This document shows, piece after piece, positions 22,228 through 43,789 of a stretch of 43,789 nt of DNA. The DNA is from Clostridiales bacterium. GTDB lineage: Bacteria > Bacillota > Clostridia > Christensenellales > DUVY01. Position 1 is the stretch's first letter. Every line of letters starts with the position of its first letter. Below the pieces are notes generated by a model. It saw only the letters and a list, made by a program, of their open reading frames with translations. It had not been told where the DNA came from and did not search any database. The stretch covers positions 1 through 43,789 of the forward strand of contig DUVY01000015.1 of the NCBI GenBank assembly GCA_012840805.1. Direction: 5' to 3'. The translations under genes were made by a program, and so were the position numbers.

Positions 22228-22303
22228 TGGAGCTGATGACGGGACTCGAACCCGTGACCTCCTCCTTACCAAGGAGGTGCTCTACCTGCTGAGCTACATC
22301 AGC
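22228..22303 (-). tRNA. tRNA-Thr (anticodon GGU)
   Basis: Read on the minus strand, the acceptor arm GCTGATG pairs with CATCAGC. The D arm holds AGCTCAGCAGGTAGAGC, the anticodon stem CCTCC/GGAGG encloses a loop with anticodon GGT, and the T arm is ACGGG-TTCGAGT-CCCGT. The discriminator T is followed by an encoded CCA. All arms fold. Confidence 0.97.
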
Positions 22304-23412: not shown

Positions 23413-23415
23413 TAA

Positions 23416-24843: not shown

Positions 24844-24971
24844 CGTTTATACCCTAAACCTATAAATATATGGGACTAAATGATAGCATTTTTTAGGGTA
24901 AACTTCAAGTTTATGCAAAAACTGAACAAGCCTTTAAAACTATGTTTTCAAATCATTAAAATTAAATAATA

Positions 24972-25000
24972 TTGTTCAAAAACAGGTTATATGTTAATAT
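24972..25000 (+). promoter_or_regulatory. Probable promoter of sbcDC
   Basis: TTGTTC at 24972-24977 and TAATAT at 24995-25000 with 17 bases between them lie 19 bases before the sbcD ATG. The sequence AAAAACAGGT occurs twice around it, and the second copy provides a weak ribosome binding site. Confidence 0.45.
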
Positions 25001-25018
25001 AAAAACAGGTAAAAAAAT

Positions 25019-26152
25019 ATGAAAATACTACACACGGCAGATTTGCATCTGGGTAAAAAATTATTTAATACGGACAGAGTAGACGAGCAAGAAGCGGTTA
25101 TGCTAGAGATTATTGATATCGCGCGTGCCAATAAGGTTGATATGGCGCTTATAGCGGGCGATATCTTTGATACCGCTTTGCCGTCCGCCGCCGCCGAGAC
25201 TCTCTTTTTTGAGAGTATGGTAAATTTGGGTCAAATCTGCACGGTTATTGTAATAGCGGGCAATCATGACGACCCTGTGCGTCTTGCCGCCGCTAAAGAG
25301 ATGGCGCTAAGCTGCAATATAGTTTTGGCGGGCGAGAGCGATATTACATATTCGGCGAGAAAGTTTGAGGCGGGCAAGGGCTATATCAAGACCCGTATAA
25401 ACGACCAAAAAGTCTGCGTCAATATCGTGCCTTATCCGTCGGATTCCAGAATGGGCGAGGTCATAAAAGAAAACACTGCTTACCCCGAGCGAGTAAAGAG
25501 ACGGCTGTTTGAGGGCGCTAAGGGTTTTGAAAAAGACAGTATTAACATAAATATAAGCCATTTGTTTTGCGTAGGCGGCGTTAAAGAAGGCGACGAGCGC
25601 GAGATAGAGCTGGGCGGGGCGCGACTTATTCCCACTGAGGCTTTTCCCGAGGCGCATTATACGGCGCTTGGGCATATCCACAAGCCGCAGACCATATCAA
25701 AAACAAAAAACATACATTACAGCGGCTCAATAATGCCTTACGCTTTTGACGAAACTTCCCAAAAATCAGTTATTATCGCGGATATTAATGCGCAAGGGAT
25801 AAACGACTTTGTAAGAGCGCCCTTGACCAAGTATAAGCCCGTAGCCAAGCTGCAAGCCGGCAGCGTTATGCAAGCTTTGGATTTATTAGAAAAAAACCTA
25901 GACAAATGGGTTTGGCTTGAGCTAAAACTAGACGACAGCATCACAGACAGCGCCGCCAAAAGCCTAAAAAGCTTTTCCAATATGCTAAGATTTTCTTTGA
26001 TTTTACCAGAAAGAGAGAAGGTTATCATAAAAGACAAGCGCCTAAAATCCGACCGTGAAATTTTTGTTGAGTTTTACAAAAGCCAATACGGCGGCAAAGA
26101 ACCTAAGCCCGAGCTTGTGAATATGTTTTTGGAGATTATGAATGAGTTATGA
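25019..26152 (+). CDS. sbcD: SbcD exonuclease subunit
   Basis: This is the nuclease subunit of the SbcCD (Mre11-Rad50 type) complex, which opens hairpins and trims DNA ends during repair and replication. The 377-residue protein has the calcineurin-like metal motifs in order: D8-x-H10 (TADLHLG), GDIFD near residue 48, GNHDD near residue 81, then ISHLF and GHIHKPQ. The C-terminal part provides the SbcC contact. It overlaps sbcC by four bases (ATGA), indicating translational coupling. Confidence 0.97.
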   Translation: MKILHTADLHLGKKLFNTDRVDEQEAVMLEIIDIARANKVDMALIAGDIFDTALPSAAAETLFFESMVNLGQICTVIVIAGNHDDPVRLAAAKEMALSCNIVLAGESDITYSARKFEAGKGYIKTRINDQKVCVNIVPYPSDSRMGEVIKENTAYPERVKRRLFEGAKGFEKDSININISHLFCVGGVKEGDEREIELGGARLIPTEAFPEAHYTALGHIHKPQTISKTKNIHYSGSIMPYAFDETSQKSVIIADINAQGINDFVRAPLTKYKPVAKLQAGSVMQALDLLEKNLDKWVWLELKLDDSITDSAAKSLKSFSNMLRFSLILPEREKVIIKDKRLKSDREIFVEFYKSQYGGKEPKPELVNMFLEIMNEL

Positions 26153-28851
26153 AACCCATTAGTTTAAAGATAAAAGGCATCAAAAATTATCAAATAGAGC
26201 AATTTATTGATTTTGAAAGTTTAGCAAGCGAAGGCGTGTTTGGGATTTGCGGCAAGACGGGTAGCGGCAAGTCCGCTATCATGGAGAGCATTATTATCGC
26301 GCTGTTTGGCGATTTGCCAAGCGGCAGAGGGTATAATTATGAGATTGTCAATCTAACCGACAAGCAAGCGGATATAGAATTTGTTTTTAGTCTAAACAAA
26401 GACGGGCAACAAAAAAAATATCTGATTGAACGTCAATTAAAGACCCAAACAGAAAACCGAATGAGCGCCCAGATTTTTGATATTACCAACCAAAAGATAA
26501 GTTTGGCGTCGGGACTTAGGGATGTCAAAAATTATGTGATTGACTTATTAAAACTCAACGAAAAAGACTTTACCCAATGCGTTATCCTAGAACAAGGGCA
26601 ATATGATAAGTTTGTGACCGCGGACGCTTCCGAGCGAAAAAAAATGATAGGTAATATATTTTCGCTCAACAAATACGGCGATGAGCTTAATAATAAAGTT
26701 TTGGATTACAGGCGGGAATATCAAGGCAAAGCCGACGGGCTTAAGAGTTTTTTGCAAAGCTTTGGCGAGATTGACAAGGCTATGATTGATGAAAAAAGAA
26801 AGATATATCAAGATTATGAGATGCGTTTTGAGGAGATCTTAAAGCAAATAGAACAAGCCGACCAACAACTAAAAGAATTGGAAAAATTATATCAAGAATA
26901 TCAAGATTATCAAAATTTACAATCCCAAATAAAAAGAGCTCAAGACAATAAGAAAGTTTTAGAAAAAAAGATAAATGAGCTAAAACAAGATTATACCCAA
27001 AAAGCCGCCCAAGCCCAACAGACCAAAAATTTGAGCCAAAAAAAAGAACAACTGAAGTCTTATATAGACACACTTAACGATAACCATCAAAACCAAAAAA
27101 AGATAAAGTCATTAATCGAACAAAAAGCCCAAAAAGCCCAAGAATACATAAAAATAAAATCCGATATAAGCCATATCAATAAAAATTTGCAAAAAGCGCG
27201 ATACGACCAAGAACAATATACCAAGCGTATTAACGCCGATTTGGAGACATTACATAATCTTGTTAAGATAAGATTGACATTAGACGAAAAGCTGGCTGTT
27301 AATTTGGTTAATAAGTTTAGCGAATACTCCCAAGACGTTCAAAAATATGTGGATTTAAATAAAGAACTAAAAGAGTTAACGCAATCTATTAAGGACGACT
27401 CTGAAAAGCTGGACGGGTTTTATAAGCTTCAAGCTGATATTATAAAAAACCAAAATGAATACAAAAAAACACTAGAACAGCTTGAGAAAGAATACGCGCG
27501 TTTTATCGAGCATAACGCCAAGGCGCTTATAAGTTACCAAGTCAAGATAGGCGATAAGTGCCCTATTTGCGATAATGTTATCACGCGGTTACCCGAAGAT
27601 TTTGAAATCGTCGGTCTAGAAGACATAACCGCCCAAATTGATAATTGGAAAAAAGCTTATTACGATATAACCCAAACCCAAGCGTCCCAAGCCCAAGATA
27701 TAAACAATACCCAAAAAGCCATTAAGGAAAAACAAGAAAAAGCTAAAAAATTGCAAGACGAGATAAAAAAATTAAAGCTTAACGATAGCTGTATCCAAAC
27801 CAAAAAGCAATTTGAAACTGTAAAAAATAATTGCTTAGATTTGCTTGAAAAAATAACCAAAGCCCAAAACGATATCCGAGAACAAAAGGCGCTTCTTGAA
27901 AAAAACGAGTTGTTATTGGAAAAGATCGAACAAGAGGGCAAAAAGCTGGCTCAAGAGATTGAAGAGCTACAAGACAATCTAAAAAAGATTTTGGGCTCTT
28001 ACGCTGATTTTGATCAAGCTTTGAAGAACAGCAATGAACAATACAAAAAACTAGAAGCCCAAATAGAAGAGCTTACAAAAGCCGAGCGCGCGGCTGACAA
28101 AGCGCTTAACGAGGCGCGAACGGATTTGGTAAAAATTCAAACCGAGTTAAAAGGCTTTCAAGACCGCATTGCCTTGTTAAGTCCGCGCCCTATTACGCAA
28201 GAACAAATACAAAACGCACGCCAGCGAAAAACCGAATTGGACGAGGCGCAAAAAAAACTGTCCCAAAATCTAGGCGAATTAAAAGGCGAGATAGCCCGAC
28301 TTGAGCAAGACTTGATTAAATATAATGAAGCCAAAAAAGAAATAGCCAAAGTCCAAAAAAAGCTGGACATAATCAACCAGCTTCACAAACTGACCACGTC
28401 CAACAAATTGATGGAATTTATGGCGGAAGAATACATAGAAGAGTTTACATATACTGCAAGCGAATATCTTAACCTTTTGACTATGGGTCAGTTTGAGTTA
28501 GTCTATGACAACAGCTTTTTGATAAAGGACCATTTTTGCGGCGGACAGCTCCGCAAGGTCAATACGGTCTCGGGCGGCGAGATGTTTTTGGTTTCGCTGT
28601 CTTTGGCTATCTCAATTTCGCGCGCGCTCTCTTTACGAAGCGGCGCGGCGGCGGTTGAGTTTTTGTTTATAGACGAGGGATTCGGGACTTTGGATTCGGA
28701 CTTGATAGACACCGTTATGGACGCTTTGGAAAAATTAAAGGATAGTTTTATCATAGGGCTGATCTCTCACAGGGCGGAATTGCAACAACGCCTACCCAAA
28801 AAACTCTATGTCGAAAGAACATCCAAAGGCAGCATAATAAGCTATCAATAA
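26149..28851 (+). CDS. sbcC: SbcC ATPase subunit
   Basis: This is the SMC-like ATPase partner of SbcD. The 900-residue protein has Walker A at G35-KTGSGK-S42, two long coiled-coil arms (about 200-460 and 490-740), and the zinc hook C471-PI-C474 between them. The ABC signature is VSGGE at 807-811 and Walker B ends D842-E843 (FLFIDEGFGTLD). The size is slightly below the E. coli protein but usual for Clostridia. The coiled coil is rich in Gln and Lys. It is coupled to sbcD by a four-base overlap. Confidence 0.97.
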   Translation: MKPISLKIKGIKNYQIEQFIDFESLASEGVFGICGKTGSGKSAIMESIIIALFGDLPSGRGYNYEIVNLTDKQADIEFVFSLNKDGQQKKYLIERQLKTQTENRMSAQIFDITNQKISLASGLRDVKNYVIDLLKLNEKDFTQCVILEQGQYDKFVTADASERKKMIGNIFSLNKYGDELNNKVLDYRREYQGKADGLKSFLQSFGEIDKAMIDEKRKIYQDYEMRFEEILKQIEQADQQLKELEKLYQEYQDYQNLQSQIKRAQDNKKVLEKKINELKQDYTQKAAQAQQTKNLSQKKEQLKSYIDTLNDNHQNQKKIKSLIEQKAQKAQEYIKIKSDISHINKNLQKARYDQEQYTKRINADLETLHNLVKIRLTLDEKLAVNLVNKFSEYSQDVQKYVDLNKELKELTQSIKDDSEKLDGFYKLQADIIKNQNEYKKTLEQLEKEYARFIEHNAKALISYQVKIGDKCPICDNVITRLPEDFEIVGLEDITAQIDNWKKAYYDITQTQASQAQDINNTQKAIKEKQEKAKKLQDEIKKLKLNDSCIQTKKQFETVKNNCLDLLEKITKAQNDIREQKALLEKNELLLEKIEQEGKKLAQEIEELQDNLKKILGSYADFDQALKNSNEQYKKLEAQIEELTKAERAADKALNEARTDLVKIQTELKGFQDRIALLSPRPITQEQIQNARQRKTELDEAQKKLSQNLGELKGEIARLEQDLIKYNEAKKEIAKVQKKLDIINQLHKLTTSNKLMEFMAEEYIEEFTYTASEYLNLLTMGQFELVYDNSFLIKDHFCGGQLRKVNTVSGGEMFLVSLSLAISISRALSLRSGAAAVEFLFIDEGFGTLDSDLIDTVMDALEKLKDSFIIGLISHRAELQQRLPKKLYVERTSKGSIISYQ

Positions 28852-29233
28852 TGTATTAGATTGTGTAATTTTTTGGCGATAAAAAATGTCTTTATAAATT
28901 CAAAGAAAAAACATTAAACCATAATATAATTATTAAATTTATATTTTTTCCACAAAAATTGGACTTAAAGTCCAAACATATTTTCTCTTGTATAAAAAAT
29001 CGCTAGCAAAACTATGCTTTTAAAGGTCATTAAAGGTATTATTTTTAATCTATTATGATATTTGCGGTCAAAATTGAGCGCTATTCTTTGCGAAATTTTT
29101 TTATTTATCCGCTATAATCTATTATTTTTTGAAAAACGATATATATTTTAAAATTTACGGCTTTATATTTTCCGAAACAATTTATTATGCTGACCTGCGC
29201 TTTTCTTGCTAACTCGGTCAAAATCTTTTTTAT
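28852..29233. other. Intergenic region between sbcC and murA
   Basis: No gene is seen. It contains the odd palindrome TTGGACTT-A-AAGTCCAA (28959-28975), and degenerate copies of the end of murA (see the repeat entry). No clear terminator with a T run follows sbcC. Confidence 0.5.
29046..29128. repeat. Degenerate copies of the murA 3' end
   Basis: TTTTTATTTATCC followed by AATCTATTAT occurs at 29097-29124 and again at 29227-29253, where it spans the murA stop and last codons. A shorter AATCTATTATG copy lies at 29047-29057. The preceding GCGGTCAAAATTG / CTCGGTCAAAATC also corresponds, so roughly 130 bases look duplicated and decayed. Confidence 0.5.
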
Positions 29234-30487
29234 TTATCCATAATAATCTATTATGGCGCGGACGCTTGAGAGTTTGCCTACAATATCTTGATAGCCGCGG
29301 CTAATATAATTATCGCCGCTGATTATAGAAACGCCTTTGGCTTTGAGCGCCGCGCCCACAAGCGCCGCCCCGCCCCTTAGGTCGCTTGCCGCGAGCTTAG
29401 ATGGATTAAGCTTTTCAACGCCTTCTATAACAGCGGTATTGCCTTGTATATTGATTTTAGCGCCCATATGGTTTAACTCTTGCGCTTGTTGAAATCTGTT
29501 TTCAAACACGGTTTCGGTAATTGTGCTTACGCCGTCGCATACCGCCATTAGACTTAACATAAGCTGCTGCAAGTCCGTAGGGAACTCGGGATGCGGGCCT
29601 GTCGTGATATGCGCGGCTTTGAGCCTGCCTTGACACGAAATCTTAATTGTGTTATTTTCGCAAATAATTTTGGCGCCCATTTCCCTTAGCGTCGCGATAA
29701 CTTTTTCCAAATCTTTGAGTCGGGTGTTTTTGAGCGTCAGCTCGCCGCCCGCTATACAGCAATATATCAAAAATGTCCCCGCTTCTATATGGTCGGGCGA
29801 TATCGTATAAGGGCTTGTCTGGACTAATTTTTTGACGCCATTGATTTCCACAATTGGAGTGCCAATGCCTTTTATATCCGCGCCTACCGAAACCAAAAAA
29901 TTTGCCGCATCAACTACATTGGGTTCGGCTGCGGCATTTTTTATTACGGTCTTTCCTTTGGCAAGCGCGGCGGCAATCATAAGGTTGACCGTCGCGCCCA
30001 CCGACGGATAGGGCAAGGTGATATCGCCGCCTATAAGGTCGCCATAGGCGTTTAGAAAAATTTTGTCTTCTACTATGCGGCTTTTTACGCCCAAAGCCTC
30101 AAAACCGTCCAAATGATAGTTTATGGGTCTTGAGCCGATTTTGCACCCGCCGGGCATACTGACGCATCCTATCCTAAACCTGCCTACAAGCGCGCCCATA
30201 AAATAACTTGCCGCCCTTATGCTTTTCATCTTAGGATGCACCGCAAAGCAACTATTAAGAGTGTCGGGTTCTATGACCATTACCCCGTGCGCGTCTATAT
30301 GAGTTTTGCAGCCCATAGAGAACAAAATTTCGCGCATATCAAAAATATCTTCTATTAAGGGCACATTGTGCAAAACAACAGGGCTGTCGCAAAGACACGC
30401 CGCCGCGATTATAGCTAGGGTGGCGTTTTTGCTGCCGCTTATGATAACTTCGCCTTTCAGTCTTTGTCCGCCATTTATCATTATCAT
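29234..30487 (-). CDS. murA: UDP-N-acetylglucosamine 1-carboxyvinyltransferase
   Basis: First committed enzyme of peptidoglycan synthesis: it adds enolpyruvate from PEP to UDP-GlcNAc in the cytoplasm. The 417 residues match the family. Lys 22-type SGSKNA is near the N-terminus, and the fosfomycin-target Cys is residue 115 in MPGGCKIGSRP. FPTDLQQ and the C-terminal ADLRGGAALVGAAL (here SDLRGGAALVGAAL) are present. Two ATGs lie two codons apart and no strong ribosome binding site decides between them; I keep the first. Bacillota often have two MurA paralogues; which one this is cannot be told. It diverges from the degenerate ABC gene. Confidence 0.96.
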   Translation of the reverse strand: MIMINGGQRLKGEVIISGSKNATLAIIAAACLCDSPVVLHNVPLIEDIFDMREILFSMGCKTHIDAHGVMVIEPDTLNSCFAVHPKMKSIRAASYFMGALVGRFRIGCVSMPGGCKIGSRPINYHLDGFEALGVKSRIVEDKIFLNAYGDLIGGDITLPYPSVGATVNLMIAAALAKGKTVIKNAAAEPNVVDAANFLVSVGADIKGIGTPIVEINGVKKLVQTSPYTISPDHIEAGTFLIYCCIAGGELTLKNTRLKDLEKVIATLREMGAKIICENNTIKISCQGRLKAAHITTGPHPEFPTDLQQLMLSLMAVCDGVSTITETVFENRFQQAQELNHMGAKINIQGNTAVIEGVEKLNPSKLAASDLRGGAALVGAALKAKGVSIISGDNYISRGYQDIVGKLSSVRAIIDYYG

Positions 30488-30674
30488 GTCTTTAGTATAA
30501 ATAGAGCTTTTGATAATTATTCTTTTTTTGTAAACTCATTTGGTCAAATCAAAATGTCCCTTGTCTGTTAATATATTTTTTGTGCCATAGATATTTTTGA
30601 ATAGATAGTTTAACAAAAGGGCATAATCCATATATTAAAAGCGTTTGGGGTTTTTATAAAAATAGGAGAATATT

Positions 30675-31460
30675 ATGATAGAAGAGTTGACCGATAGTAT
30701 CACCTTAAAAAAAGGCGACGAGGTGTTTTTGGACAATGTGTCTTTGAGGCTTAACAGGGGCGAGGCTATGGCGCTTTTGGGCGATAATGTATCCTTAAAG
30801 CGCCTGTTTTTGAAGATAATCGCGTCCCAAAAAAAAGATTTGGTTTTGCTTATAGAAGACGATACCATATTGTCCGATATAATTATGAGCAACTCAGACA
30901 GATACATCTTGCGCACGAGCATACTGTTTGGGACTTTTGATGTTACCGAATATCTTGAGTATAAGTTTTCGCATCTTGAGATACCGCGCGCCCAAAGGCT
31001 TAATGTCATTAAAGACTGCCTGACAAGATTTGGGCTGGAAGACCACAGCCGCTCCAAGCTAAAAAACCTCTCTTCTGGCGAGGCGGCATTATTAAATATC
31101 GCGGCTCAATCCACTACCCAAAAAAGAGTGATAATAATTGACGCGGACAGCTTTTTGGATATTTCTATTAAGCCCGTTTTGGAAAGGGCAATCGCCGCGC
31201 TAAAAAGTTTGGGTTATAGCATTGTATTGAGCGTGTGCGTAAAAGAACTAAGCGAGTGCGCTGGAGTGGACAAAATCGGCATAATTGAAAACGGCAAGAT
31301 CAGAGAGCTTGCCCCGCCCTTTAAAAAAGCCGACAAAAAATTACTAAGAAAAGGATTTATATCAAGGCTAAAACAGCTTATCTTTGGGCTAAGAAGACAC
31401 GCAAAGAAACCCAAAAAAGAGCTAGGCGTAAAGCTCATTGCTGAAGAAAAAGATTTTTAA
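30675..31460 (+). CDS. ABC-ATPase-like protein with lost catalytic residues
   Basis: The 261-residue protein keeps the ABC ATPase outline: an A-loop-like start (DEVFLDNVSLRLNRGEAMALLGD), a Q-loop-type middle, a signature NLSSGE, a Walker B strand VIIID, and a C-terminal IGIIENGKIRE strand. The catalytic parts are gone. Walker A reads G36-DNVSLK-R43 instead of GxxGxGKS/T, the catalytic Glu after Asp 156 is Ala 157, and the H-loop reads LSVCVKE without His. It is about the right length with a basic tail, so it looks maintained rather than decayed. A GGAG site precedes the ATG. The next gene, 89 bases on, is a membrane protein and may be its partner. Function unknown. Confidence 0.75.
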   Translation: MIEELTDSITLKKGDEVFLDNVSLRLNRGEAMALLGDNVSLKRLFLKIIASQKKDLVLLIEDDTILSDIIMSNSDRYILRTSILFGTFDVTEYLEYKFSHLEIPRAQRLNVIKDCLTRFGLEDHSRSKLKNLSSGEAALLNIAAQSTTQKRVIIIDADSFLDISIKPVLERAIAALKSLGYSIVLSVCVKELSECAGVDKIGIIENGKIRELAPPFKKADKKLLRKGFISRLKQLIFGLRRHAKKPKKELGVKLIAEEKDF

Positions 31461-31549
31461 TGCAATTTTAATCTTTTTTTAATATGATGTTAATGCTTTT
31501 TTTTGCATATTATAGTATATTTATAATGTAATTAAAGGCAGGTAACATC

Positions 31550-32230
31550 ATGATATTCATAAAATGGTTATTAAGAGTAATATTAGGATTGGCGGCATTT
31601 TTGGGCGTCGCGGCCGCGATAAGCGTCCCTCTTGTTCCTATGACAATATATGTAGTCAGATGGGCAGGCTGGACATTCGCTATATTAAGCAATTTGCCTT
31701 GGTGGACGCCTTACGCTTTGGCTTTGTTGGGCGGGCTCGCTATTACCGCTTTTGTTAAGTCCTTGCCCGTTGTGCGCAATCTAAGAAAATTTATCACAGA
31801 GTTTGTGATATTTGGCGTTATATTTGGCGGCTTGTTCTATGTGTCTCAAACATACTTTTACTATTACCCAATCGTGCCGCAAGATATTATTACTAAGGCA
31901 TACAACTTAACCAAATTCGGCTTTATACCCACCGTGTTTTCTAACAATGTCTATACTATGCTTGTTGGCGCGGGCTTAGCGCTTGTATTCTTGTTGGTTT
32001 TTTTTCTCGCGAGAGCGTTAAGAAACAAGAAAAAACTCCAAGCCCAGCTTGAAGCCAGCGCGATCAAAAAGGCGCGCACCACGGTTCCTACCAATATAGT
32101 CAGCTCAGCTGACGGTAGCAAGATTGCCGACTATAAAGCCAAAAAATATGTAAGGGATATTTGGGGCAATTATATAGAAGAAGAAGACTACAACGCGCGC
32201 ATTAACGAAGTCAAAAACCGCAAACTATAA
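31550..32230 (+). CDS. Membrane protein with four helices and a cytoplasmic tail
   Basis: This 226-residue protein has hydrophobic helices at about 5-35, 55-72, 85-105 and 140-160. A charged tail follows (KKLQAQLEASAIKKAR to the end), ending in a tyrosine-rich, acidic segment (YVRDIWGNYIEEEDY). I do not recognise a family. AGGT stands before the ATG, and TATAAT at 31522-31527 could serve as a -10 box, although no good -35 is present. It follows the degenerate ABC gene, and a terminator follows. It could be a membrane partner of that protein, but this is only positional. Confidence 0.7.
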   Translation: MIFIKWLLRVILGLAAFLGVAAAISVPLVPMTIYVVRWAGWTFAILSNLPWWTPYALALLGGLAITAFVKSLPVVRNLRKFITEFVIFGVIFGGLFYVSQTYFYYYPIVPQDIITKAYNLTKFGFIPTVFSNNVYTMLVGAGLALVFLLVFFLARALRNKKKLQAQLEASAIKKARTTVPTNIVSSADGSKIADYKAKKYVRDIWGNYIEEEDYNARINEVKNRKL

Positions 32231-32263
32231 CCCATTAAAAAAAATCTATGGACCATATTTTAA

Positions 32264-32301
32264 AAAATCCCGTTTTGGTATCAAGCGGGATTTTAGTCTT
32301 T
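32264..32301 (+). terminator. Terminator after the four-helix membrane protein
   Basis: AAAATCCCG pairs with CGGGATTTT around a 13-base loop, followed by a T-rich stretch. Confidence 0.75.
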
Positions 32302-32320
32302 TTAAGGGCGCATTATAATA

Positions 32321-32349
32321 TTGACAAACATACTAGATTAATCTATTAT
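32321..32349 (+). promoter_or_regulatory. Promoter of metA
   Basis: A perfect TTGACA at 32321-32326 and TATTAT at 32344-32349 are 17 bases apart, 35 bases before the metA ATG. No SAM riboswitch or T-box is seen in the short leader. Confidence 0.75.
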
Positions 32350-32383
32350 ATATGAAACAAAATTATAAAAAAAGAGGTTATCT

Positions 32384-33319
32384 ATGCCGGTCAACATAAC
32401 AGGAAAATTACCCGCCGTAAAAGCGCTAGAAAAAGAGAATATATTTGTTATGACCCAAGAGCGCGCGATATCTCAGGATATCCGTCCGCTCAAAGTGGTT
32501 ATTCTTAATTTGATGCCGGTAAAAGAAATTACGGAAAACCAATTGTTAAGATTGATATCCAATACGCCTCTTCAAGTGGATGTGGTGTTGTTGCGCACTG
32601 AAAGCTACGAGGGCAAACATACTCCAAAAGCGCACCTTAAGCAGTTTTACAAAACATTCAGCCAAATCAAAGACCAAAGATTTGACGGATTGGTTATTAC
32701 AGGCGCGCCCGTGGAAACTATGGACTTTTCCAATGTGCTGTATTGGGACGAGTTGACCGAGATAATTAAATGGGCGGACACCAATGTATTTTCTACGCTG
32801 TATATATGCTGGGCGGCTCAAGCGGGGCTATATTACCATTACGGCATACCCAAACACAGCTTGCCCCATAAAATAAGCGGAATTTTTGAGCATACGCTTT
32901 GTTCCAAACTCAACCCGATAGTAAGAGGCTTTGATGATCAATTTTTGGCGCCGCATTCAAGGTTTACCGAAGTTAGACGCGAGGATATCCAAAAACATCC
33001 TTCACTTGAGATATTGTCCGAGTCCGAAGAGGCGGGCGTTTATATAATAGCCACCAAAAACTTAAGGCATATATATGTAACCGGTCATAGCGAATATGAC
33101 GCGGACACTTTGCATAAGGAATATATACGGGACAAAGAAAAAGGCTTAAATATTGATATCCCTAAGCATTATTACATCAACGACGAAGTGGGCAAAATCC
33201 CGCCTATGACTTGGCGAAGCCATTCTATGCTGTTGTTTAATAATTGGCTCAACTACGCGGTATATCAAGAAACGCCTTACGACTTGTCTCAATTGCCCCA
33301 ATCCGAACATAAGAAGTAA
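32384..33319 (+). CDS. metA: Homoserine O-acetyltransferase (MetA fold)
   Basis: Activates homoserine for methionine synthesis. The 311-residue protein has the MetA family landmarks: ILNLMPVK, the nucleophile Cys 142 (YICWAAQAG) and the catalytic His-x-Glu in TGHSEYD. Residue 111, in GAPVE, is Glu. In the MetA family Glu at this place is known to select acetyl-CoA (as in the Bacillus cereus enzyme), while Gly gives succinyl-CoA specificity (E. coli). I therefore call it an acetyltransferase in spite of the common succinyltransferase label. GAGG precedes the ATG. It is a single-gene unit with its own promoter and terminator. Confidence 0.95.
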   Translation: MPVNITGKLPAVKALEKENIFVMTQERAISQDIRPLKVVILNLMPVKEITENQLLRLISNTPLQVDVVLLRTESYEGKHTPKAHLKQFYKTFSQIKDQRFDGLVITGAPVETMDFSNVLYWDELTEIIKWADTNVFSTLYICWAAQAGLYYHYGIPKHSLPHKISGIFEHTLCSKLNPIVRGFDDQFLAPHSRFTEVRREDIQKHPSLEILSESEEAGVYIIATKNLRHIYVTGHSEYDADTLHKEYIRDKEKGLNIDIPKHYYINDEVGKIPPMTWRSHSMLLFNNWLNYAVYQETPYDLSQLPQSEHKK

Positions 33320-33325
33320 AAATAA

Positions 33326-33363
33326 AAAAACGGTATCTCCAAAAAAGAAGATACCGTTTTTTT
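33326..33363. terminator. Bidirectional terminator after metA
   Basis: AAAAACGGTATCT pairs with AGATACCGTTTTT around a 10-base loop. T runs occur on both strands, so it also serves the converging Fic-like gene. Confidence 0.88.
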
Positions 33364-33375
33364 ATTAGGCAAAGT

Positions 33376-34011
33376 TTATTGGGTTATAAGACAATTTTCA
33401 ATCAAAAACTCTTTTAACGGCTCTTTTTTATCGGTGTTGAAATAATATAAAGATTTTAAATTAAAATCTACTAAGTCTTTGTCCTGTATTATCAAAAGCC
33501 CCGCGCCGCCTCTTATAAGTATAATATTCGCCGCTATCAAAAACGCGCGCTTATTGCCCAGCCAAAACAGCCTGTTTTTGCACCCGCCATACAAAAAGCA
33601 CTCAAGCGCTTGCTCTAACGGGTCTTCAATCTCGGATATCTTTTTTAGATCCTCTATTGTCTTTTTGGGGTCGGGCGGCGGCATATTCTTGTGGTTGACC
33701 TTTGTCCGCAAAGCGCCCCCTTGCGCGTCTTCGAATCCATCCAAAATAATGGCGTTGATTTTAGATATCCAATCCAAATTAATTTCGCTGTCTATATTAT
33801 CCAAGGCGAATTGCCAGGCTTTTTGTAGGTTTTTTATTATTCTTTTGTGTTCGTCTGATATTCGGGAAACATCAATATCATCCAAGAGTGCTTGCGTTTC
33901 GGTCGGCGTGATGTTTATGTTCGCCATTTTGGCGCAAGAGTGAATGCTTTTGGTCAGGTAATTTTGGGCAAGCTTTAGATTGTCTTCTTTGCTTAGACAA
34001 TTTGTTTTCAT
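33376..34011 (-). CDS. Fic-fold-like protein lacking the catalytic histidine
   Basis: This 211-residue, mostly helical protein has a C-terminal segment that matches the end of the Fic core: F149-WLGNKR155 followed by AFLIAANIILIRGGAGLL. In Fic enzymes the motif is HxF..GN(G/K)R, with His starting transfer of AMP or another group. Here the His position is Arg 147. The earlier GALRTK (99-104) and PPPDPKKTIEDL (111-122) also fit the Fic flap and following region (G.(y/l)R...v.(I)...(h)..P....i...m..l). So the fold is probably Fic but the chemistry is doubtful. Single gene, with an AGGAGG-like site before the ATG. Its neighbour is a membrane protein on the same strand, 43 bases upstream. Confidence 0.7.
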   Translation of the reverse strand: MKTNCLSKEDNLKLAQNYLTKSIHSCAKMANINITPTETQALLDDIDVSRISDEHKRIIKNLQKAWQFALDNIDSEINLDWISKINAIILDGFEDAQGGALRTKVNHKNMPPPDPKKTIEDLKKISEIEDPLEQALECFLYGGCKNRLFWLGNKRAFLIAANIILIRGGAGLLIIQDKDLVDFNLKSLYYFNTDKKEPLKEFLIENCLITQ

Positions 34012-34054
34012 AAAACACCTCCTATTAAAATCTATGTCTTAGGCGGTAGTTTCT

Positions 34055-34735
34055 TTAATTATTTTGTAGCCTCAACGAATTTTCCTCTACACTGACCAAA
34101 ATCATTCCGTTGGAAGTTTTGCGATAGAATTCAAGGCGGTCGGGATACTCGGCGATAAACAATGACGGATCTTTGCGCGTGCGGTATAGTTTGGCGGGCT
34201 CTTCTATAGGAACGTCATAGTTGTTGCTGTAAGACTTAAGGTCGGGGATGTTGGGAGAGTGTTTTAACTCGGGCACGACCTCGTAGCTTACATTAAACCA
34301 TTCGGCGTTTCGTCTTTTAAAAGACTTCTTTATATCGTCAGGACCTACATATTCCTCGCGATAAGATTGCGGCTGTGAAAATTGGGGTTGCGCAAACTGC
34401 GGCTTAGGCGCAAATTGCTGCCCCTCAAATTGTTGCGCTTGCTCTTTTGGCGGGGCTTCATCAGCTTGCGCGCCAGGCGCTTTTTTTATCTTAAGCCCAA
34501 AAAGCTTTCTCACAAGCAAAAGCAAGCTCAATATCGTTCCGCCCGCCACAAGCACGATAAAATGGGACAAATATTTGGCAAAAGAAAATGGAACAAGCGC
34601 CGAACACAGCGCGAAGATAACGGCAAAGCTTATGGGAATCCATAAATATAGCTTCACTATCAAAAGCCCTAAGAATTTTGATATCTGCTTTAACAAAAAT
34701 TTTGTAAATTTCCATAAAAGCTTTAGTATTATCAT
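34055..34735 (-). CDS. Membrane protein with Pro/Gln-rich linker
   Basis: This 226-residue protein has two hydrophobic helices (about 15-50 and 56-78), a basic segment (RKLFGLKIKK), and a low-complexity Ala/Pro/Gln/Phe linker with FAPKPQFAQPQFSQPQ near 107-122. A C-terminal soluble domain follows (about 130-226), with beta-strands such as LFIAEYPDRLEFYRKTSNGMILVSVEE. I do not recognise a family. It is upstream of the Fic-like gene on the same strand with a 43-base gap, so the two may be cotranscribed. No ribosome binding site stronger than AAAG is seen before its ATG. Confidence 0.65.
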   Translation of the reverse strand: MIILKLLWKFTKFLLKQISKFLGLLIVKLYLWIPISFAVIFALCSALVPFSFAKYLSHFIVLVAGGTILSLLLLVRKLFGLKIKKAPGAQADEAPPKEQAQQFEGQQFAPKPQFAQPQFSQPQSYREEYVGPDDIKKSFKRRNAEWFNVSYEVVPELKHSPNIPDLKSYSNNYDVPIEEPAKLYRTRKDPSLFIAEYPDRLEFYRKTSNGMILVSVEENSLRLQNN

Positions 34736-36532: not shown

Positions 36533-36925
36533 ATGATAAAAAATCTCAAAATTATTTTGTTTTTTGCTTTGTCAATCTTATTCTTTGTATATGGAATATT
36601 AGATTATTTTCTCATCTCAAAAGAATTATCGTTTTATGCTATTTCTATTGTAGCGCTTGGATTAATTATGGCGATATTACAGCTGGTGTTTTGGGATAAG
36701 AAAAAATACGCCTTGATAACAATCTTTGGTGCCATAAAATATTTAGGTAGTTTTGGCCTTTCTTTGCTGCCTTTGACGGCGCTAATTTCTGGTTTATATC
36801 AAATAGCTTCCAGACAGCTTATTATTAATGGCATAATTGTTATCAGCATTTTACTCGCGGCGATAATCGTTTTGGCGGTATTGGAATATATAGTGATAAG
36901 AAAAACAGCCAAGCAAAAACAATAA
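36533..36925 (+). CDS. Small four-helix membrane protein
   Basis: This 130-residue product is almost entirely hydrophobic, with four helices at about 5-28, 33-53, 60-88 and 96-120, a short WDKKKY loop in the middle, and a basic end (RKTAKQKQ). I do not recognise the family. An AAAGGA site precedes the ATG. A damaged look-alike of its last helix follows directly downstream. It is the last chromosomal gene before the tRNA scar and inserted element. Confidence 0.6.
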   Translation: MIKNLKIILFFALSILFFVYGILDYFLISKELSFYAISIVALGLIMAILQLVFWDKKKYALITIFGAIKYLGSFGLSLLPLTALISGLYQIASRQLIINGIIVISILLAAIIVLAVLEYIVIRKTAKQKQ

Positions 36926-37116: not shown

Positions 37117-37149
37117 GAAAAAGCCGTCATACTTTAGACGGCTGTTTTT
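37117..37149 (-). terminator. Terminator of the former tRNA-Thr gene
   Basis: AGCCGTC pairs with GACGGCT around an 8-base loop. On the minus strand it lies directly after the tRNA CCA end and is followed by a T run, so it is the original tRNA terminator, left on the chromosomal side. Confidence 0.75.
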
Positions 37150-37194
37150 TGGAGCTGATGGGGGGATTTGAACCCCCGACCTATTGATTACGAA
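37150..37194 (-). other. 3' half of tRNA-Thr (CGU): attachment site of an integrated element
   Basis: Read on the minus strand, the sequence starts in the anticodon loop (TTCGTAA, anticodon CGT). It continues with the 3' strand of the anticodon stem (TCAAT), the variable loop AGGTC, a perfect T arm (GGGGG-TTCAAAT-CCCCC), the acceptor strand CATCAGC, discriminator T and CCA. The 5' half is missing: upstream bases do not pair with the anticodon stem and no D arm or GCTGATG follows. The break in the anticodon loop is where tyrosine recombinases often cross over. The intact gene should be rebuilt at the other end of the element, beyond the window. Confidence 0.85.
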
Positions 37195-37339: not shown

Positions 37340-37678
37340 TTAGTTTTTTTTGTCTTTGTCTGCTATGAGGTTATCAATAAGAGTAATTAAGGCATCATAT
37401 TGCTTGTCTGATAGGTTGTTGATTTTATCTTTTAGTCCTGCTTGTATTAGCTTTCTTTCAAGTTCGCTTTGCTGTATTGTTTCTGTTCCTAAGAGGTAAT
37501 TTACATCTGTATTTAAAACTTCTGCTATTTTTTCTATTGTTTTTGAAATTGGTCTATTATTTCCGCTTTCCCATTGCGCTACAGCAGAACGGGTTGTTCC
37601 TATTGCGTCGGCTAATTCTTGTTGAGTTAATCCATTATCTATTCTTAAATTTTTTAGTCTTTTTGCAAAAATATCCAT
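37340..37678 (-). CDS. XRE-family repressor of the element
   Basis: This 112-residue protein has an N-terminal XRE helix-turn-helix (residues about 5-60: RLKNLRIDNGLTQQELADAIG, then AVAQWESGNNRP) and a short C-terminal helical part (SELERKLIQAGLKDKINNL...) likely used for dimerisation. There is no LexA-type peptidase domain, so it is not a self-cleaving repressor. It is transcribed away from the rest of the element, with 103 bases of operator region before the divergent SprT-like gene. By position it is the lysogeny-type switch protein. No strong ribosome binding site precedes the ATG, only an A-rich leader, which may mean weak expression. Confidence 0.88.
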   Translation of the reverse strand: MDIFAKRLKNLRIDNGLTQQELADAIGTTRSAVAQWESGNNRPISKTIEKIAEVLNTDVNYLLGTETIQQSELERKLIQAGLKDKINNLSDKQYDALITLIDNLIADKDKKN

Positions 37679-37698: not shown

Positions 37699-37766
37699 AT
37701 CTAACAAAAATCTATTGACTTGTTAGATTATTTGTCTTATAATATAACTAAGTTAGATAATCTAAC
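37699..37766. promoter_or_regulatory. Divergent promoter region with repeated TGTTAGAT operators
   Basis: A near-ideal rightward promoter (TTGACT 37715-37720, 17 bases, TATAAT 37738-37743) is surrounded by half-sites of one motif. These are ATCTAACA at 37699-37706, TGTTAGAT at 37721-37728 inside the promoter spacer, and the perfect palindrome GTTAGAT-A-ATCTAAC at 37752-37766 downstream of the -10 box. The arrangement is that of a phage-type operator set, presumably bound by the XRE repressor. Confidence 0.75.
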
Positions 37767-37781
37767 AAGGAGGTAATTAAA

Positions 37782-38384
37782 ATGTGTTGTAACGAAAAAT
37801 ATTTAAACGAATTAAAGGCATTTAATGACTTATTCGATTGCTTAAATAAAATATTTTTTGAAAGTGCACTTTCAAAACCTGTAATTACGATACAGGCTAA
37901 TAAGAAGCCTAATACTTTAGGTTGGTGCACTGGTTACAATGCTTGGCAAAGCGGCGAAGAAAAAAGCCCAGAAATTAATTTATCGGCTGATTATCTTGAC
38001 CGTGAGCCTATTGATAAAGTAGGAACATTATTGCACGAAATGTGCCATTTATATGCCTTTCAAAATAATATTAAAGACACATCAAGGGCAGGGAATTATC
38101 ACAATAAGCAATATAAAGAGATAGCCGAAAAACACGGCTTAAAAGTAGAAAAATCATCGAAAGGCGGTTTTGATATTACGACTTTAACGGAAAATGCAAA
38201 ACAGCTTGTTAAACCTTATGTCAATAACTTGCAAGCTTTAAAGCGTATTAGTCCTGTGAAGATTGTTGCTAGCAGAAGCAGCACACGAAAATATATTTGT
38301 CGTTCTTGCGGTTTGTCAGTCAGAGCCACGAAAGAAGTAAATATCATTTGTGGCGACTGTAATCAAAAAATGGAATTAGAATGA
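37782..38384 (+). CDS. SprT-like zinc metallopeptidase
   Basis: This 200-residue protein has the zinc peptidase motif H85-EMC-H89 in the context LLHEMCHLYAFQN, preceded by an LGWCTG..AW strand region typical of SprT-like domains. The C-terminal zinc ribbon has the pattern YICRSCGLSVRAT...IICGDCNQKM (four Cys). SprT-like proteins of phages and plasmids are usually of unknown role; the eukaryotic relative SPRTN cuts proteins crosslinked to DNA. It is the first gene of the rightward operon, with an AAGGAGG site overlapping the operator palindrome end. It overlaps the next gene by four bases. Confidence 0.85.
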   Translation: MCCNEKYLNELKAFNDLFDCLNKIFFESALSKPVITIQANKKPNTLGWCTGYNAWQSGEEKSPEINLSADYLDREPIDKVGTLLHEMCHLYAFQNNIKDTSRAGNYHNKQYKEIAEKHGLKVEKSSKGGFDITTLTENAKQLVKPYVNNLQALKRISPVKIVASRSSTRKYICRSCGLSVRATKEVNIICGDCNQKMELE

Positions 38385-38576: not shown

Positions 38577-38939
38577 ATGGTAATCGAAACAGTAATGAGA
38601 TTTTTAAGTTGTCGTTTCTATGACAAGAAAGACAAAAAGTCAGGCGAAAAGACGGGCGAAAAAGGAATGATTTTGCAACTAGCAGAAATTAACGACGACA
38701 ATGATGTAATTGTTAACACTTATTTTCCTACAGAGGAACAAATCAAAACAAAAGGTGGGATTAATTTGGTAAAGTTATTTGACAAAGTAAAAGTAACTTT
38801 TGAATTAATCAGCGCATCCGCAAAGCCTCGTTTTGTTGCATTAGGCGATGTAGTTGAAGTTGCTCATATAGTATATTCCCCGACAGAAGAAGATATCAAG
38901 AAACAAGTTGAACAAGAAAGGGCAAAAAAGGCAAGCTAA
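38577..38939 (+). CDS. Possible single-stranded DNA-binding protein of the element
   Basis: This 120-residue protein starts at ATG 38577 after AAAGGAG; a frame opening at 38532 has no ribosome binding site. The sequence alternates short beta-strands (METVMRFLSCRFY-type start, MILQLAEINDDNDVIVNTYF, VKLFDKVKVTFELISA, PRFVALGDVVEVAHIVY) and ends in a charged helix (EEDIKKQVEQERAKKAS). The size, strand pattern, aromatic and basic residues and its place before the replication-like hairpins fit a gene-V-type or OB-fold ssDNA-binding protein. I see no signature motif, so this is inference from size and position. Confidence 0.45.
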   Translation: MVIETVMRFLSCRFYDKKDKKSGEKTGEKGMILQLAEINDDNDVIVNTYFPTEEQIKTKGGINLVKLFDKVKVTFELISASAKPRFVALGDVVEVAHIVYSPTEEDIKKQVEQERAKKAS

Positions 38940-38963
38940 TTTCTTTCATATTTCATTCTCCGC

Positions 38964-39043
38964 AGCCGACTGCAAACGGCTTAAGAAAAAAGTATTTTAA
39001 ATACTGTTTGCAGAGCTTTGGCGGGTTGAGCTAATCAATCCGC
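38964..39043 (+). other. Cluster of strong, mutually exclusive hairpins (origin or packaging candidate)
   Basis: Hairpin A is AGCCG/CGGCT (38964-38968, 38977-38981). Hairpin B is CTGCAAAC/GTTTGCAG (38970-38977, 39006-39013) enclosing a second stem AGTATT/AATACT (38991-38996, 39000-39005). A and B share bases and cannot form together. Hairpin C is GCGGGTTGA/TCAATCCGC (39021-39029, 39035-39043) with one G-T pair. None is followed by a T run, so they are not plain terminators. Confidence 0.6.
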
Positions 39044-39466: not shown

Positions 39467-39712
39467 ATGGCAAAAGTAGCAAAGAGAAAATATCGTAAAA
39501 GATATCGCAATCCTGCAAAGCGGGCAGGGGAGTATGCGGATGATTTGCGATATAATTGCGACCCGATGGGGCGTGCGTTAACTAAAGGGCAAAGGGCTTA
39601 TCGTGCAGGTTATTTACAGGCTAGGCGAGATTCTGCAATTGCTTATAATCTTAAAACGGGAAGAAAGAAACCCGAAGATTATGGCATTAAACCTTATAGG
39701 AATAAAAGGTAA
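39467..39712 (+). CDS. Small, strongly basic protein of the element
   Basis: This 81-residue protein carries many Arg, Lys and Tyr residues (start KVAKRKYRKRYRNPAKRAGE, end KPYRNKR) and a central segment ALTKGQRAYRAGYLQARRDS. A GGAGG site precedes the ATG. The high positive charge suggests nucleic acid binding, for example in genome packaging, but no motif proves it. It directly precedes the secreted-protein module. It has no membrane helix, so it is not a normal filamentous-phage coat protein. Confidence 0.7.
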   Translation: MAKVAKRKYRKRYRNPAKRAGEYADDLRYNCDPMGRALTKGQRAYRAGYLQARRDSAIAYNLKTGRKKPEDYGIKPYRNKR

Positions 39713-39819: not shown

Positions 39820-41661
39820 ATGCAAGAATATAAAAAGGATTATTTAAAAACTAATTATAACAAGATAATCGTATTTTGTTTAATTTTATTTTTTGGTATT
39901 GGTTTGTTATTTTCTTCTAATATTTTGAAAGAGGAAGTAAAAGCATTTTATCCATCTTCGCCAGATGAAGTTATATTAACTTTAAATGGTGATATGTTGA
40001 CGCCTAGCGGTCCTGCTGTAAGTAATCCTGGACATATAACTTGGTATTATTATCGTGTCCCTTATTTTGTAACCAATAATGATTTTTCGAATGAAGCTAT
40101 TGTTAGGTATCAAGAAAGAATTAAAAAGTTTGAAGAGAATGAGATAAAAGCAATAAATTTAAATGATTTTACTTGGGAAGCAAACACGGTTTATACTTTG
40201 TGGTTGTTTGGTAATATTTGGGACGATAATTCCGTATTTATTTCAAATCTTATTTATTATGTTCCTGGCAGGACGGTAAGTAATGAGCCAATTAATACGC
40301 CTGGATATTCTTATAAACTTTCTGATAAGCCTAAGGGTTCAAATGATGATCTTACTATAGATGGCAATATAGTTACTATAACGGGTAATTCAATAGCGGG
40401 CGATTTAAAGATTTCTTATTTTAGTGGTGTTGATAATACTTTCGGAACTTTGGCGGTTGGACATGTTGATGATGTTGACGTTAATGTATCTATTGATTTA
40501 AGTTATCTTCCTTTGGCTCAATATACGGCATATAAGGTATATTTTGAAGGTTTGGATTATTATAGTAACCCTGTTGTAATGCCAGAATGGATATATAGTA
40601 TATCTCCTATGTTGCCTTTACCGACAGCACCTCAAAAAGAAGGATATACTTTTGTTGGTTGGTATTATGATGAGGAATATACACAGCCTTATATTGACGG
40701 AACTCCGATTTTTGAAGATACGACTTTGTATGCTAAATACGAAATTAATACATATACTGTAACTTATATTTTAAATGGTGATACCTATAGAATTGATGCA
40801 GTTACGTATAATTCTTACGCACAGAATTTCGAAATATCTCAAACAGGTTATACTTTTAGCGGTTGGCATACTGATGCTGAATGTGAAAATCCATACGATT
40901 TTAATATCCCTGTAAAATCCCATTTAACCTTATACGGCAGAAATATTATAAATAAATATACTGTTACTTTTGACGCAAACGGCGGTATCGTAAAAAGTGG
41001 AAACGCTGTGCAAATTGTTGAATATGGCAAGCCTGCTGTTGCTCCCATTGTGGAAAGAGAAGGTTATACCTTTAAAGGTTGGGATAAAGTATTTAATAAT
41101 ATCACTAACGATTTAACCGTAATTGCTTTATGGGAAATCAATAAATATAAGGTTACTTTTGATGCTAATGGCGGAATTATAAAAAGCGGTGACGCTGTGC
41201 AAACCGTTGAATATGGCAATTCTGCTATTGCGCCTGTTGTCGAAAGGATTGGATATAATTTCAAAGGTTGGGATAAGTCGTTTAGTAGTATTACTGGCGA
41301 TTTAACCGTAACAGCACAATGGGAAATTATTACTTTTAAAGTTACTTTTATAGTTGATGGTGTTGAATACGATACAATAACTATTGAATACGGCACGATG
41401 TTTTATGAGAATAAAAGCGTTCAAGAGATTTTGGGAACTTTATCTGCTGTGTATTCTGATGCTCAAAAGACATCCTTGTTTATGCCTACAAGCGCTATAA
41501 ACGAAGATATAACGCTTTTTGCCGAAGTTGATGCATCATTGCGTGGTTGGCTTGATTTCGCTTTGTGGTTTCAAAAGTATTGGATGTGGCTTGCAATTGG
41601 TGCGGGTGTTTTGGCTTTGGTCATAACTGTCGTTGTAATCAAGGTTAAAGGGGGTAAATAA
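39820..41661 (+). CDS. Secreted, membrane-anchored protein with Listeria-Bacteroides repeats (adsorption-protein candidate)
   Basis: This 613-residue protein has a signal-type helix at about 15-38, a globular part (45-265), and a run of InlB-type B-repeats (about 266-530) with the GYTF.GW..D and VTFDANGG patterns. Two nearly identical 63-residue units are residues 378-440 and 441-503. A C-terminal membrane helix (about 585-608) follows, ending in KVKGGK. The layout (signal peptide, receptor-like modules, C-terminal anchor, placed before an anchored partner and a pI-type ATPase) is that of the pIII adsorption protein of filamentous phages. B-repeats in bacteria sit in adhesins, so binding a cell-surface target is plausible. 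AGGAGG stands before the ATG. Confidence 0.75.
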   Translation: MQEYKKDYLKTNYNKIIVFCLILFFGIGLLFSSNILKEEVKAFYPSSPDEVILTLNGDMLTPSGPAVSNPGHITWYYYRVPYFVTNNDFSNEAIVRYQERIKKFEENEIKAINLNDFTWEANTVYTLWLFGNIWDDNSVFISNLIYYVPGRTVSNEPINTPGYSYKLSDKPKGSNDDLTIDGNIVTITGNSIAGDLKISYFSGVDNTFGTLAVGHVDDVDVNVSIDLSYLPLAQYTAYKVYFEGLDYYSNPVVMPEWIYSISPMLPLPTAPQKEGYTFVGWYYDEEYTQPYIDGTPIFEDTTLYAKYEINTYTVTYILNGDTYRIDAVTYNSYAQNFEISQTGYTFSGWHTDAECENPYDFNIPVKSHLTLYGRNIINKYTVTFDANGGIVKSGNAVQIVEYGKPAVAPIVEREGYTFKGWDKVFNNITNDLTVIALWEINKYKVTFDANGGIIKSGDAVQTVEYGNSAIAPVVERIGYNFKGWDKSFSSITGDLTVTAQWEIITFKVTFIVDGVEYDTITIEYGTMFYENKSVQEILGTLSAVYSDAQKTSLFMPTSAINEDITLFAEVDASLRGWLDFALWFQKYWMWLAIGAGVLALVITVVVIKVKGGK

Positions 41662-42521
41662 TGCGTAGAGTTATATTATCTGTATTAATGCTTGTAATTT
41701 GTTTTAGTGCTTTTACTCCTGTTACATACTGTTTAGATAATGGAGCTAGAGCGGCAAATGTCGCTCTAGCTTTTGAATATGATGATGCAATAAATTTGAC
41801 CGTAAAAGAAGATATGATAACGCAATATTATATTAATTTGAAGCTAGAAAATAAGACGTTTTATATCAAAAATACAGGCAATTTAAGTTTTTCTAATATT
41901 AAAAAATTGTTTGAGAAAAATAATTTCTTAGCTACTTTTATTTTTACATATAATAACATGACTATAACTGAAAAGCCTGTTATAACTTCTTGGAATATGA
42001 ACTTTGCGGTAGGTGAGCAAATAAATACGGGTGGTTATGGTTCTTTGTTGCCTTTAACTTTTGCAAAAGATGCTGATATTAACGTGCGTTCTATTTATTA
42101 CGATTATTTCAGCAAGGCGGATTTGAATGATATTTCAATATCTATTTTTGTAGATGGTTATGGTTATCCGCTTGTTGGTTATGAGACAAAATATTTTATA
42201 CCGTCTTTAAAGTTGGGTCCTTATCCTGTTTTTCCAAATTATTTTGATTTGGGTGCTAAAGTTTATACTCGTTCTGTTCCGTCTGATTATGATTATCTTT
42301 TAGAAGAAGGGCAATTGCCAGATAATGGCGGAATAAATATAATTCCGCAAGATAAAGCATCCGAAGGTTTTAATTTTTTAGACTATATAATAGCAGCTTT
42401 TAAAGCGGTTTTTGCAGGGAATGCCAATGTTATGCAATATATAATTGTTTTTGTTATTTGTCTTGCTAGTTTGTTTTTGTTGGGATTAGTTATAAAGATT
42501 CTTACTTGGATTTTTAAGTGA
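41661..42521 (+). CDS. Secreted protein with C-terminal membrane anchor (virion or assembly protein candidate)
   Basis: This 286-residue protein has a signal peptide (1-24, cut near TYC-LDN), an Asn/Tyr/Phe-rich beta-type ectodomain, a short linker (QLPDNGGINIIPQDKA) and a C-terminal helix (about 258-284, MQYIIVFVICLASLFLLGLVI). I recognise no family. Its ATG overlaps the stop of the preceding gene by one base, and its stop overlaps the GTG of the ATPase gene, so all three are translationally coupled. Its place between the pIII-like protein and the pI-like ATPase suggests a minor coat or export protein. Confidence 0.65.
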   Translation: MRRVILSVLMLVICFSAFTPVTYCLDNGARAANVALAFEYDDAINLTVKEDMITQYYINLKLENKTFYIKNTGNLSFSNIKKLFEKNNFLATFIFTYNNMTITEKPVITSWNMNFAVGEQINTGGYGSLLPLTFAKDADINVRSIYYDYFSKADLNDISISIFVDGYGYPLVGYETKYFIPSLKLGPYPVFPNYFDLGAKVYTRSVPSDYDYLLEEGQLPDNGGINIIPQDKASEGFNFLDYIIAAFKAVFAGNANVMQYIIVFVICLASLFLLGLVIKILTWIFK

Positions 42522-43351
42522 TAACTTTAATTATGATTTGGGTATTAATTGGTTTTATATTTTTAGTTTTTATTGGCTTAGTTATTAAATTAATTTTAAT
42601 TGTTAGGTCTAAACTTATAAAGAAAAAAGAAAATAAATATTATAAAGAACAAAATCGATGGCTTGTTGAACAATTTCGGCGCTGCAATGTGGCGGTCTTC
42701 GGAAAAAAGGGAACAGGCAAAGACTTATTGTTTGCTCATGTAATATATTTAAGGAAAGAATGTCATTATGCAAATATCCCATATAATGAGTTAACGGAAG
42801 TTATACCACTAAATATTATTGGAGTAGGTAGCAATAATTACAAAAATGTTTTGGAAAATAATATCAAAAAAATAGAGCGGACTTTTAAGAATTGCACTGA
42901 TATTTATTTATCTGACGCAGGTATATTTTTCCCTAGCCAGTACAACGAAACATTAGATAAATTGTACGCAGGTATACCCATCTTTATGGCTTTAAGCCGC
43001 CAATTATATCAACTTAATGTACATTTTAACAGCCAAGAATTGAACAGGGTTTGGAATAAGATAAGAGAACAAGCTGATTGTTATATACGTGTATTGCAAA
43101 GCCGTTTTGTAGGTCCTTTTGTGTATATAGATACTATAAGCTATCAGCAATATAATTCAGCGGAAAAGGGCATATTACCGCCATTAAAACCAAGAAATAA
43201 AAAAGAGCGTAGAGAATTGGAAGAGTTTACCGCCCGCAATGGTGAAGTTGTTTATAGAACTTTTAGAATGCATAAGCGAGAAATAAAATTTGATACTTAT
43301 TATTTTTCAAAAGTCTTTTTTGATGATGAAGGAGTTATAAGCAATGATTAA
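42518..43351 (+). CDS. Zot/pI-like assembly ATPase with N-terminal membrane helix
   Basis: This 277-residue protein has an N-terminal membrane helix (about 4-30), a basic segment, then a P-loop domain. Walker A reads G62-KKGTGK-D69 in VAVFGKKGTGKDLLFAH; the last residue is Asp instead of Ser/Thr. A Walker B-like strand is TDIYLSDAGIFFPSQ, resembling the IDEA...F pattern of Zot proteins, and ALSRQLYQLNVHF suits the next strand. pI/Zot ATPases drive extrusion of filamentous phages through the membrane. The start is GTG 42518, overlapping the preceding stop (GTGA); an ATG at 42533 is possible but would shorten the helix. Alternatives are other membrane P-loop ATPases. Confidence 0.7.
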   Translation: MITLIMIWVLIGFIFLVFIGLVIKLILIVRSKLIKKKENKYYKEQNRWLVEQFRRCNVAVFGKKGTGKDLLFAHVIYLRKECHYANIPYNELTEVIPLNIIGVGSNNYKNVLENNIKKIERTFKNCTDIYLSDAGIFFPSQYNETLDKLYAGIPIFMALSRQLYQLNVHFNSQELNRVWNKIREQADCYIRVLQSRFVGPFVYIDTISYQQYNSAEKGILPPLKPRNKKERRELEEFTARNGEVVYRTFRMHKREIKFDTYYFSKVFFDDEGVISND

Positions 43352-43555: not shown

Positions 43556-43750
43556 ATGTTCGATATAAAAATGCAGAAAGCAAGCGCGCAAAACCAATTA
43601 AAAAAGTTGCGCCGATTATGCCGCGAAAGCCCCGGCGAGGGAGAGAGGCGCCCGTGTTAACCTGGTTCATGGTGAGGGCGGGCTTGCTGCCCTGAAAAAG
43701 CCCCGGCTGCGCCGCCAGAGAAACACGGCGCGCAGAGGCTCGCCTCGCGA
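43556..43750 (+). other. GC-rich structured stretch at the right end
   Basis: From about 43605 the sequence changes abruptly to very GC-rich, with hairpins such as AGGGC/GCCCT (43675-43679, 43689-43693), two copies of AAGCCCCGGC, and a near-inverted pair GGCGCCCGTGTT / AACACGGCGCG. A frame from ATG 43556 runs 17 sensible codons and then enters this stretch, stopping at 43660. It could be the 5' end of a group II intron or another structured mobile RNA, or a replication or packaging region. I cannot decide. Confidence 0.4.
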
Positions 43751-43789
43751 TTTTTGCTACCATATAAAAATTAATAATGGTTGCAAAAA
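43751..43789. repeat. 13-base inverted repeat at the window end
   Basis: TTTTTGCTACCAT (43751-43763) and ATGGTTGCAAAAA (43777-43789) are inverted copies with one mismatch around a 13-base AT-only loop. The sequence ends exactly at the outer base of the second arm. Confidence 0.7.

Follow-up and report, generated by a model that had tools for sequence, protein, structure and literature searches.

A displaced half of a tRNA-Thr(CGU) gene borders a probable filamentous-phage prophage in an uncultured Clostridia lineage

Introduction

Half of a tRNA gene lies at positions 37150-37194 of the window, i.e. of the whole 43,789-nt stretch of DNA analysed here. How was it parted from its other half, and what occupies the DNA beyond it? 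Insertion into tRNA genes at the anticodon loop is textbook knowledge, and the original prediction read this half gene as an attachment scar. To our knowledge, few integrated filamentous phages have been described in an uncultured Clostridia lineage. The window belongs to a MAG of 1,709,419 bases (1.71 Mb) in 231 contigs, labelled G000, which we compared with two sister genomes of the same genus, G001 and G002.

Results

The half tRNA gene and its border

The half gene is on the minus strand. Read from 37194 to 37150, it is composed of a seven-base anticodon loop containing CGT (TTCGTAA), the 3' strand of the anticodon stem (TCAAT), the variable loop (AGGTC), the T arm (GGGGG, TTCAAAT and CCCCC), the 3' strand of the acceptor stem (CATCAGC), a T and the encoded CCA. 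Its 45 bases are identical to those of the sister tRNA-Thr(CGT) genes at 39 to 41 positions. With the G001 tRNA as query, the match to the scar reaches 88% over 57 nt (E=2.7e-13), and a 22-nt piece of the scar is expected 0.00 times in shuffles. An intrinsic terminator stem-loop of the original tRNA gene (AGCCGTCTAAAGTATGACGGCT+T, z=-4.3) follows at 37122-37143, also on the minus strand, with a counterpart behind the sister tRNAs. The bases preceding the loop are AAAGAAA and offer no anticodon stem. The 5' half of the tRNA is thus missing, and ARAGORN reports no complete tRNA at 37150-37194. The 3' half running from anticodon loop to CCA with its own terminator, and the loss of the 5' half, could therefore both be read directly, as originally described.

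Neither the 45-base sequence nor an intact tRNA-Thr(CGU) was found elsewhere in the MAG. No second copy of the scar appears even when as many as 3 mismatches are allowed over 47 nt, and Thr(CGT) is absent among the 28 tRNAs of the MAG, which include Thr(GGT) (window 22228-22303) and Thr(TGT).

The half gene stands between two kinds of DNA. On its left, the chromosomal backbone at 22504-34735 (DnaC-like, SbcC-like, murA, metA, Fic and other genes) is collinear with contig C91 of G002 and with contig C136 of G001 (CALAYY010000136.1). Collinearity covers seven genes in G001 and ten in G002, where it extends from the scar back to 22.5 kb. A gene for a 130-aa membrane protein (36533-36925, plus strand) forms the chromosomal flank and has its homologue directly beyond the scar in G001. 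On the right lie phage genes. The left border of the foreign block is therefore at 37194/37195, fixed to a base or two, in agreement with the close boundary that had been expected. Base composition leaves this border unmarked because A+T-rich chromosome begins already at 36000.

The same site in sister genomes

In G001, a DUF2971 gene separates an intact tRNA-Thr(CGT) and its terminator from a second 3' half, behind which come a duplicate of the terminator and a host gene homologous to window 36533-36925. In G002, an intact tRNA-Thr(CGT) is found at C176:18272-18347 and a displaced 3' half with terminator at C91:201-245. These two copies are identical over 59 nt and show zero identity leftward of the loop. 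The 59-nt repeat begins at the same anticodon-loop base as the scar in the window. A repeat of about 45 bases had been predicted for the other end of the element; such a repeat is thus observed in G002.

Directly behind the intact tRNA of G002, an integrase-like frame bears the HTFRHTF motif of tyrosine recombinases. This frame is too short for a Pfam match and is apparently interrupted past the motif. The displaced half is preceded by what looks like the C-terminal part of a cytosine methyltransferase, just below the Pfam cut-off (20.5 vs 22 bits). In G005, tRNA-Thr(CGT) is intact and belongs to a cluster with tRNAs Gln and Glu.

Two genomes of the genus have an intact tRNA together with a displaced 3' half at the same place, and in one of them the repeat is exact; this supports the attachment-scar reading. 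Judged from sequence, 37150-37194 is a displaced attachment half-site, the one on the host side. By gene content, the site is held by a different element in each of the three species.

The half tRNA could instead have been kept as a functional piece, i.e. a tRNA-derived regulatory RNA or a terminator leader, and its T arm and terminator are indeed well preserved. We regard this as hardly credible: displaced halves are routine by-products of integration (PMC9897764), and the counterpart in G001 is visibly different, with 36 of 42 positions identical to the window scar.

What precedes the tRNA on its 5' side bears on another explanation. In G001 and G002 a gene with a VTT domain precedes the tRNA. 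In G000 this gene is on a separate contig, C129, which reaches 87 bp past the start codon and then ends in an IS-like repeat. The end of this repeat (CTTAAATTGCAACTACAAGTGCAAC...) lies at G000:C129:16906-17029, and the same repeat is seen at seven more contig ends of the MAG (C132, C49, C134, C103, C180, C144 and C107). The assembly breaks on the 5' side of the tRNA because a copy of this repeat, present at eight contig ends, lies there. The end of C129 is compatible with an interrupted tRNA site, short of proof. We had also considered that C129 ends in the tRNA promoter with an IS behind it, which would have meant loss of the tRNA 5' half. Alignment of the eight repeat copies assigned the "promoter" to the repeat itself, and the reading was dropped.

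A multicopy repeat at the end of the 5' flank contig does indicate rearrangement near the tRNA, and the MAG is fragmented. The half gene might then be a tRNA pseudogene left by a deletion, an IS event or an assembly chimera, with no site-specific integration. However, the break falls at the very loop base where the exact G002 repeat starts, an agreement that chimerism would not give. Moreover, the scar has collinear chromosome to its left and phage genes to its right, and the IS-like repeat lies on the opposite side of the gene. This origin is therefore very unlikely, and site-specific integration remains the preferred account of the displaced half.

Genes of the element

The element extends from 37195 to the contig end at 43789, where it is cut, and corresponds to an incomplete prophage. 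According to its gene content, the block is most likely a prophage of a filamentous phage (Tubulavirales, inovirus/plectrovirus-like), an identity that the original prediction did not give for it. The first gene encodes a CI/Cro-type repressor (HTH_3; 37340-37678, minus strand). This repressor is 64% identical to the product of an HTH gene of G001 (L046:3701-4012), which is located near the same site, beyond the scar toward the chromosome. A promoter-like sequence, TTGACT-17-TATAAT (37715-37743, plus strand), may drive the phage operon, and the palindrome that follows it, GTTAGATAATCTAAC (37752-37766), is a candidate repressor operator.

The genes beyond are on the plus strand. The SprT-like protein (37782-38384) is 43% identical to a protein of bajarodino virus 76 (E=5e-42), whose circular Inoviridae genome encodes Zot and Rep. 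Next comes a 120-aa protein having no family match (38577-38939), a candidate ssDNA-binding protein with a low-confidence model. It is followed by a conserved non-coding stretch with two hairpins (38946-39043, plus strand), a candidate origin or packaging signal. This stretch is about 93% identical to one of two phage contigs of G002, L044, more than the phage proteins are (ATPase, about 55-57%). The basic 81-aa protein (39467-39712) is 68-70% identical to its counterparts in both contigs. A 613-aa surface-type protein with Listeria-Bacteroides (InlB B) repeats and a C-terminal TM segment (39820-41661) could serve as adsorption protein. The secreted or membrane protein of 286 aa at 41661-42521, 40% identical to a protein of the other contig, L045, is a candidate minor coat protein.

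The Zot/pI-like morphogenesis ATPase (42518-43351) bears a Walker-A-like GKKGTGK motif. Its matches include plectrovirus MV-L51 (28% identity, E=6e-10) and an Inovirus (4e-3). AlphaFold models of this protein (pLDDT 41) and of the putative ssDNA-binding protein (58) were too poor to use. Close to the contig end, a G+C-rich intergenic block (43560-43760, plus strand) is a candidate replication origin by comparison with the G002 contigs, in which a similar block precedes Rep. As to a small major coat protein, the small genes of the visible 6.6 kb gave no family match, and the element contains no curated RNA family above the Rfam threshold.

Altogether, we consider, with a probability of about 0.78, that the scar is the 3' half of the host tRNA-Thr(CGU) gene displaced by site-specific integration and that the occupant is a filamentous-phage prophage. 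The element would integrate by site-specific recombination inside the anticodon loop of the tRNA. A separate copy of the 3' half, carried on its attP, would restore a complete tRNA at one of the element's ends. The original 3' half of the host, together with its terminator, would be carried to the other end, here the left border at 37194/37195.

Relatives of the phage and the origin of the scar

The two G002 phage contigs (L044, contig C141, and L045, contig C140; 7688 and 6750 bases) share the ATPase and the 81-aa protein with the window, and one of them has the membrane protein. Both have a Viral_Rep-type initiator at their ends. By this comparison, the window stops before Rep would begin. 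CRESS-type Reps (Viral_Rep) are present in L044, in L045 and in a contig of G004 (L077, G004:C103), there with a helicase domain. These Reps resemble initiator proteins from ssDNA viruses of eukaryotes. The MAG yielded no homologue of the G002 Rep. In IMG/VR we found no close relatives of Zot or of the SprT-like protein, in GTDB contigs no close relative of Zot, and in the plasmid collection no Zot relative.

We found neither a tRNA piece nor an obvious integrase in the G002 phage contigs. The phage thus need not be the scar-maker. An earlier, different element could have made the scar, and the filamentous phage could have come later, for instance by host XerCD or by nested insertion; the two would then be neighbours by history. 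Other elements do occupy the same site in the sisters (the DUF2971 gene of G001, the integrase-like frame and methyltransferase-like end of G002), and the visible 6.6 kb of the present element carries no integrase. However, the repressor is only 145 bases from the scar, it and the SprT-like gene start within 150-600 bases of it, and the best match of the SprT-like gene is in Inoviridae, which leaves little room for another element. This short distance favours the phage as the scar-maker. In addition, an integrase can sit at the other end of the element, by the regenerated tRNA, as in G002. A two-step history is thus rather unlikely, and integration of the phage itself remains the reading that we favour.

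The far end of the element

The contig stops within the element, and neither the second repeat nor an intact tRNA-Thr(CGT) was found in the MAG. The last 27 bases of the window revealed no overlapping contig in the same genome. The intact tRNA probably lies beyond the contig end. The only Phage_integrase match of the MAG is on contig C105, and the sister genomes contain nearly equal counterparts of it; it behaves as a chromosomal Xer gene would. The scar itself was probably made by a tyrosine recombinase, and the phage presumably carries, or once carried, an integrase of its own.

A different outcome is conceivable at this end. tRNA-Thr(CGU) would serve throughout the genus as a docking site for differing elements (the filamentous phage, the DUF2971-gene island and the integrase/methyltransferase island) and would not be regenerated here, ACG being read by tRNA-Thr(UGU) alone. 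As a whole, this scenario is quite improbable.

Discussion

The event described here is ordinary in kind. The virions of such a phage would be filamentous. What the analysis adds is the identification of the occupant and of a docking site common to three species. The border is fixed, and the block most likely represents a filamentous prophage in an uncultured Clostridia lineage. Across the three species sampled from the genus, unrelated elements dock at one and the same tRNA gene.

A displaced 3' half is the standard outcome of the action of tyrosine integrases at tRNA genes (PMC4383910, PMC8371274, PMC9897764). Islander counts 2083 islands with att sites centred on the anticodon and 3760 with 3' tDNA fragments, both being common (PMC4383910). 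As in the Islander "A" sites (PMC4383910, PMC8371274), we observe a displaced 3' tDNA fragment that begins at the 7-base anticodon loop, an intact tRNA in sister genomes and, in G002, a 59-nt direct repeat. Unlike them, the window has one of the two ends assembled and no integrase found.

In Pseudomonas, integrase-bearing filamentous phages are known to reside in tRNA genes (PMC7549136). As with these Pf phages, phage genes are bounded here by a junction in a tRNA gene. In contrast, the host belongs to another phylum, the tRNA is Thr-CGU and no integrase was found in the window. The search with the ATPase returned no Pf phage. Plectrovirus MV-L51 and bajarodino virus 76 resemble the element by the ATPase and the SprT-like gene, respectively, but no further protein of the element matches either of them. 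The comparison also included the gut inoviruses, among them the Enterocloster inoviruses (PMC10061712); a difference is the CRESS-type Rep of the G002 relatives.

For inovirus prophages, canonical att sites were counted as direct repeats, 10 bases or longer, that lie within a tRNA or outside an integrase gene (PMC6813254). We found no half tRNA as attP in IMG/VR. The 5.8-kb inovirus genome MT135298.1 carries a complete tRNA-Gln(TTG) (L160:3794-3868) between Rep and a long gene for a secreted protein.

On contig C91 of G002, 12 kb from the first, another tRNA site is occupied (L076:12648-12791 and 13098-14513). It is the tRNA-Thr(GGT), whose place corresponds to window 22228-22303. The order there is a tRNA 5' half, an intact tRNA and then a tyrosine integrase that has an HTH domain inside it.
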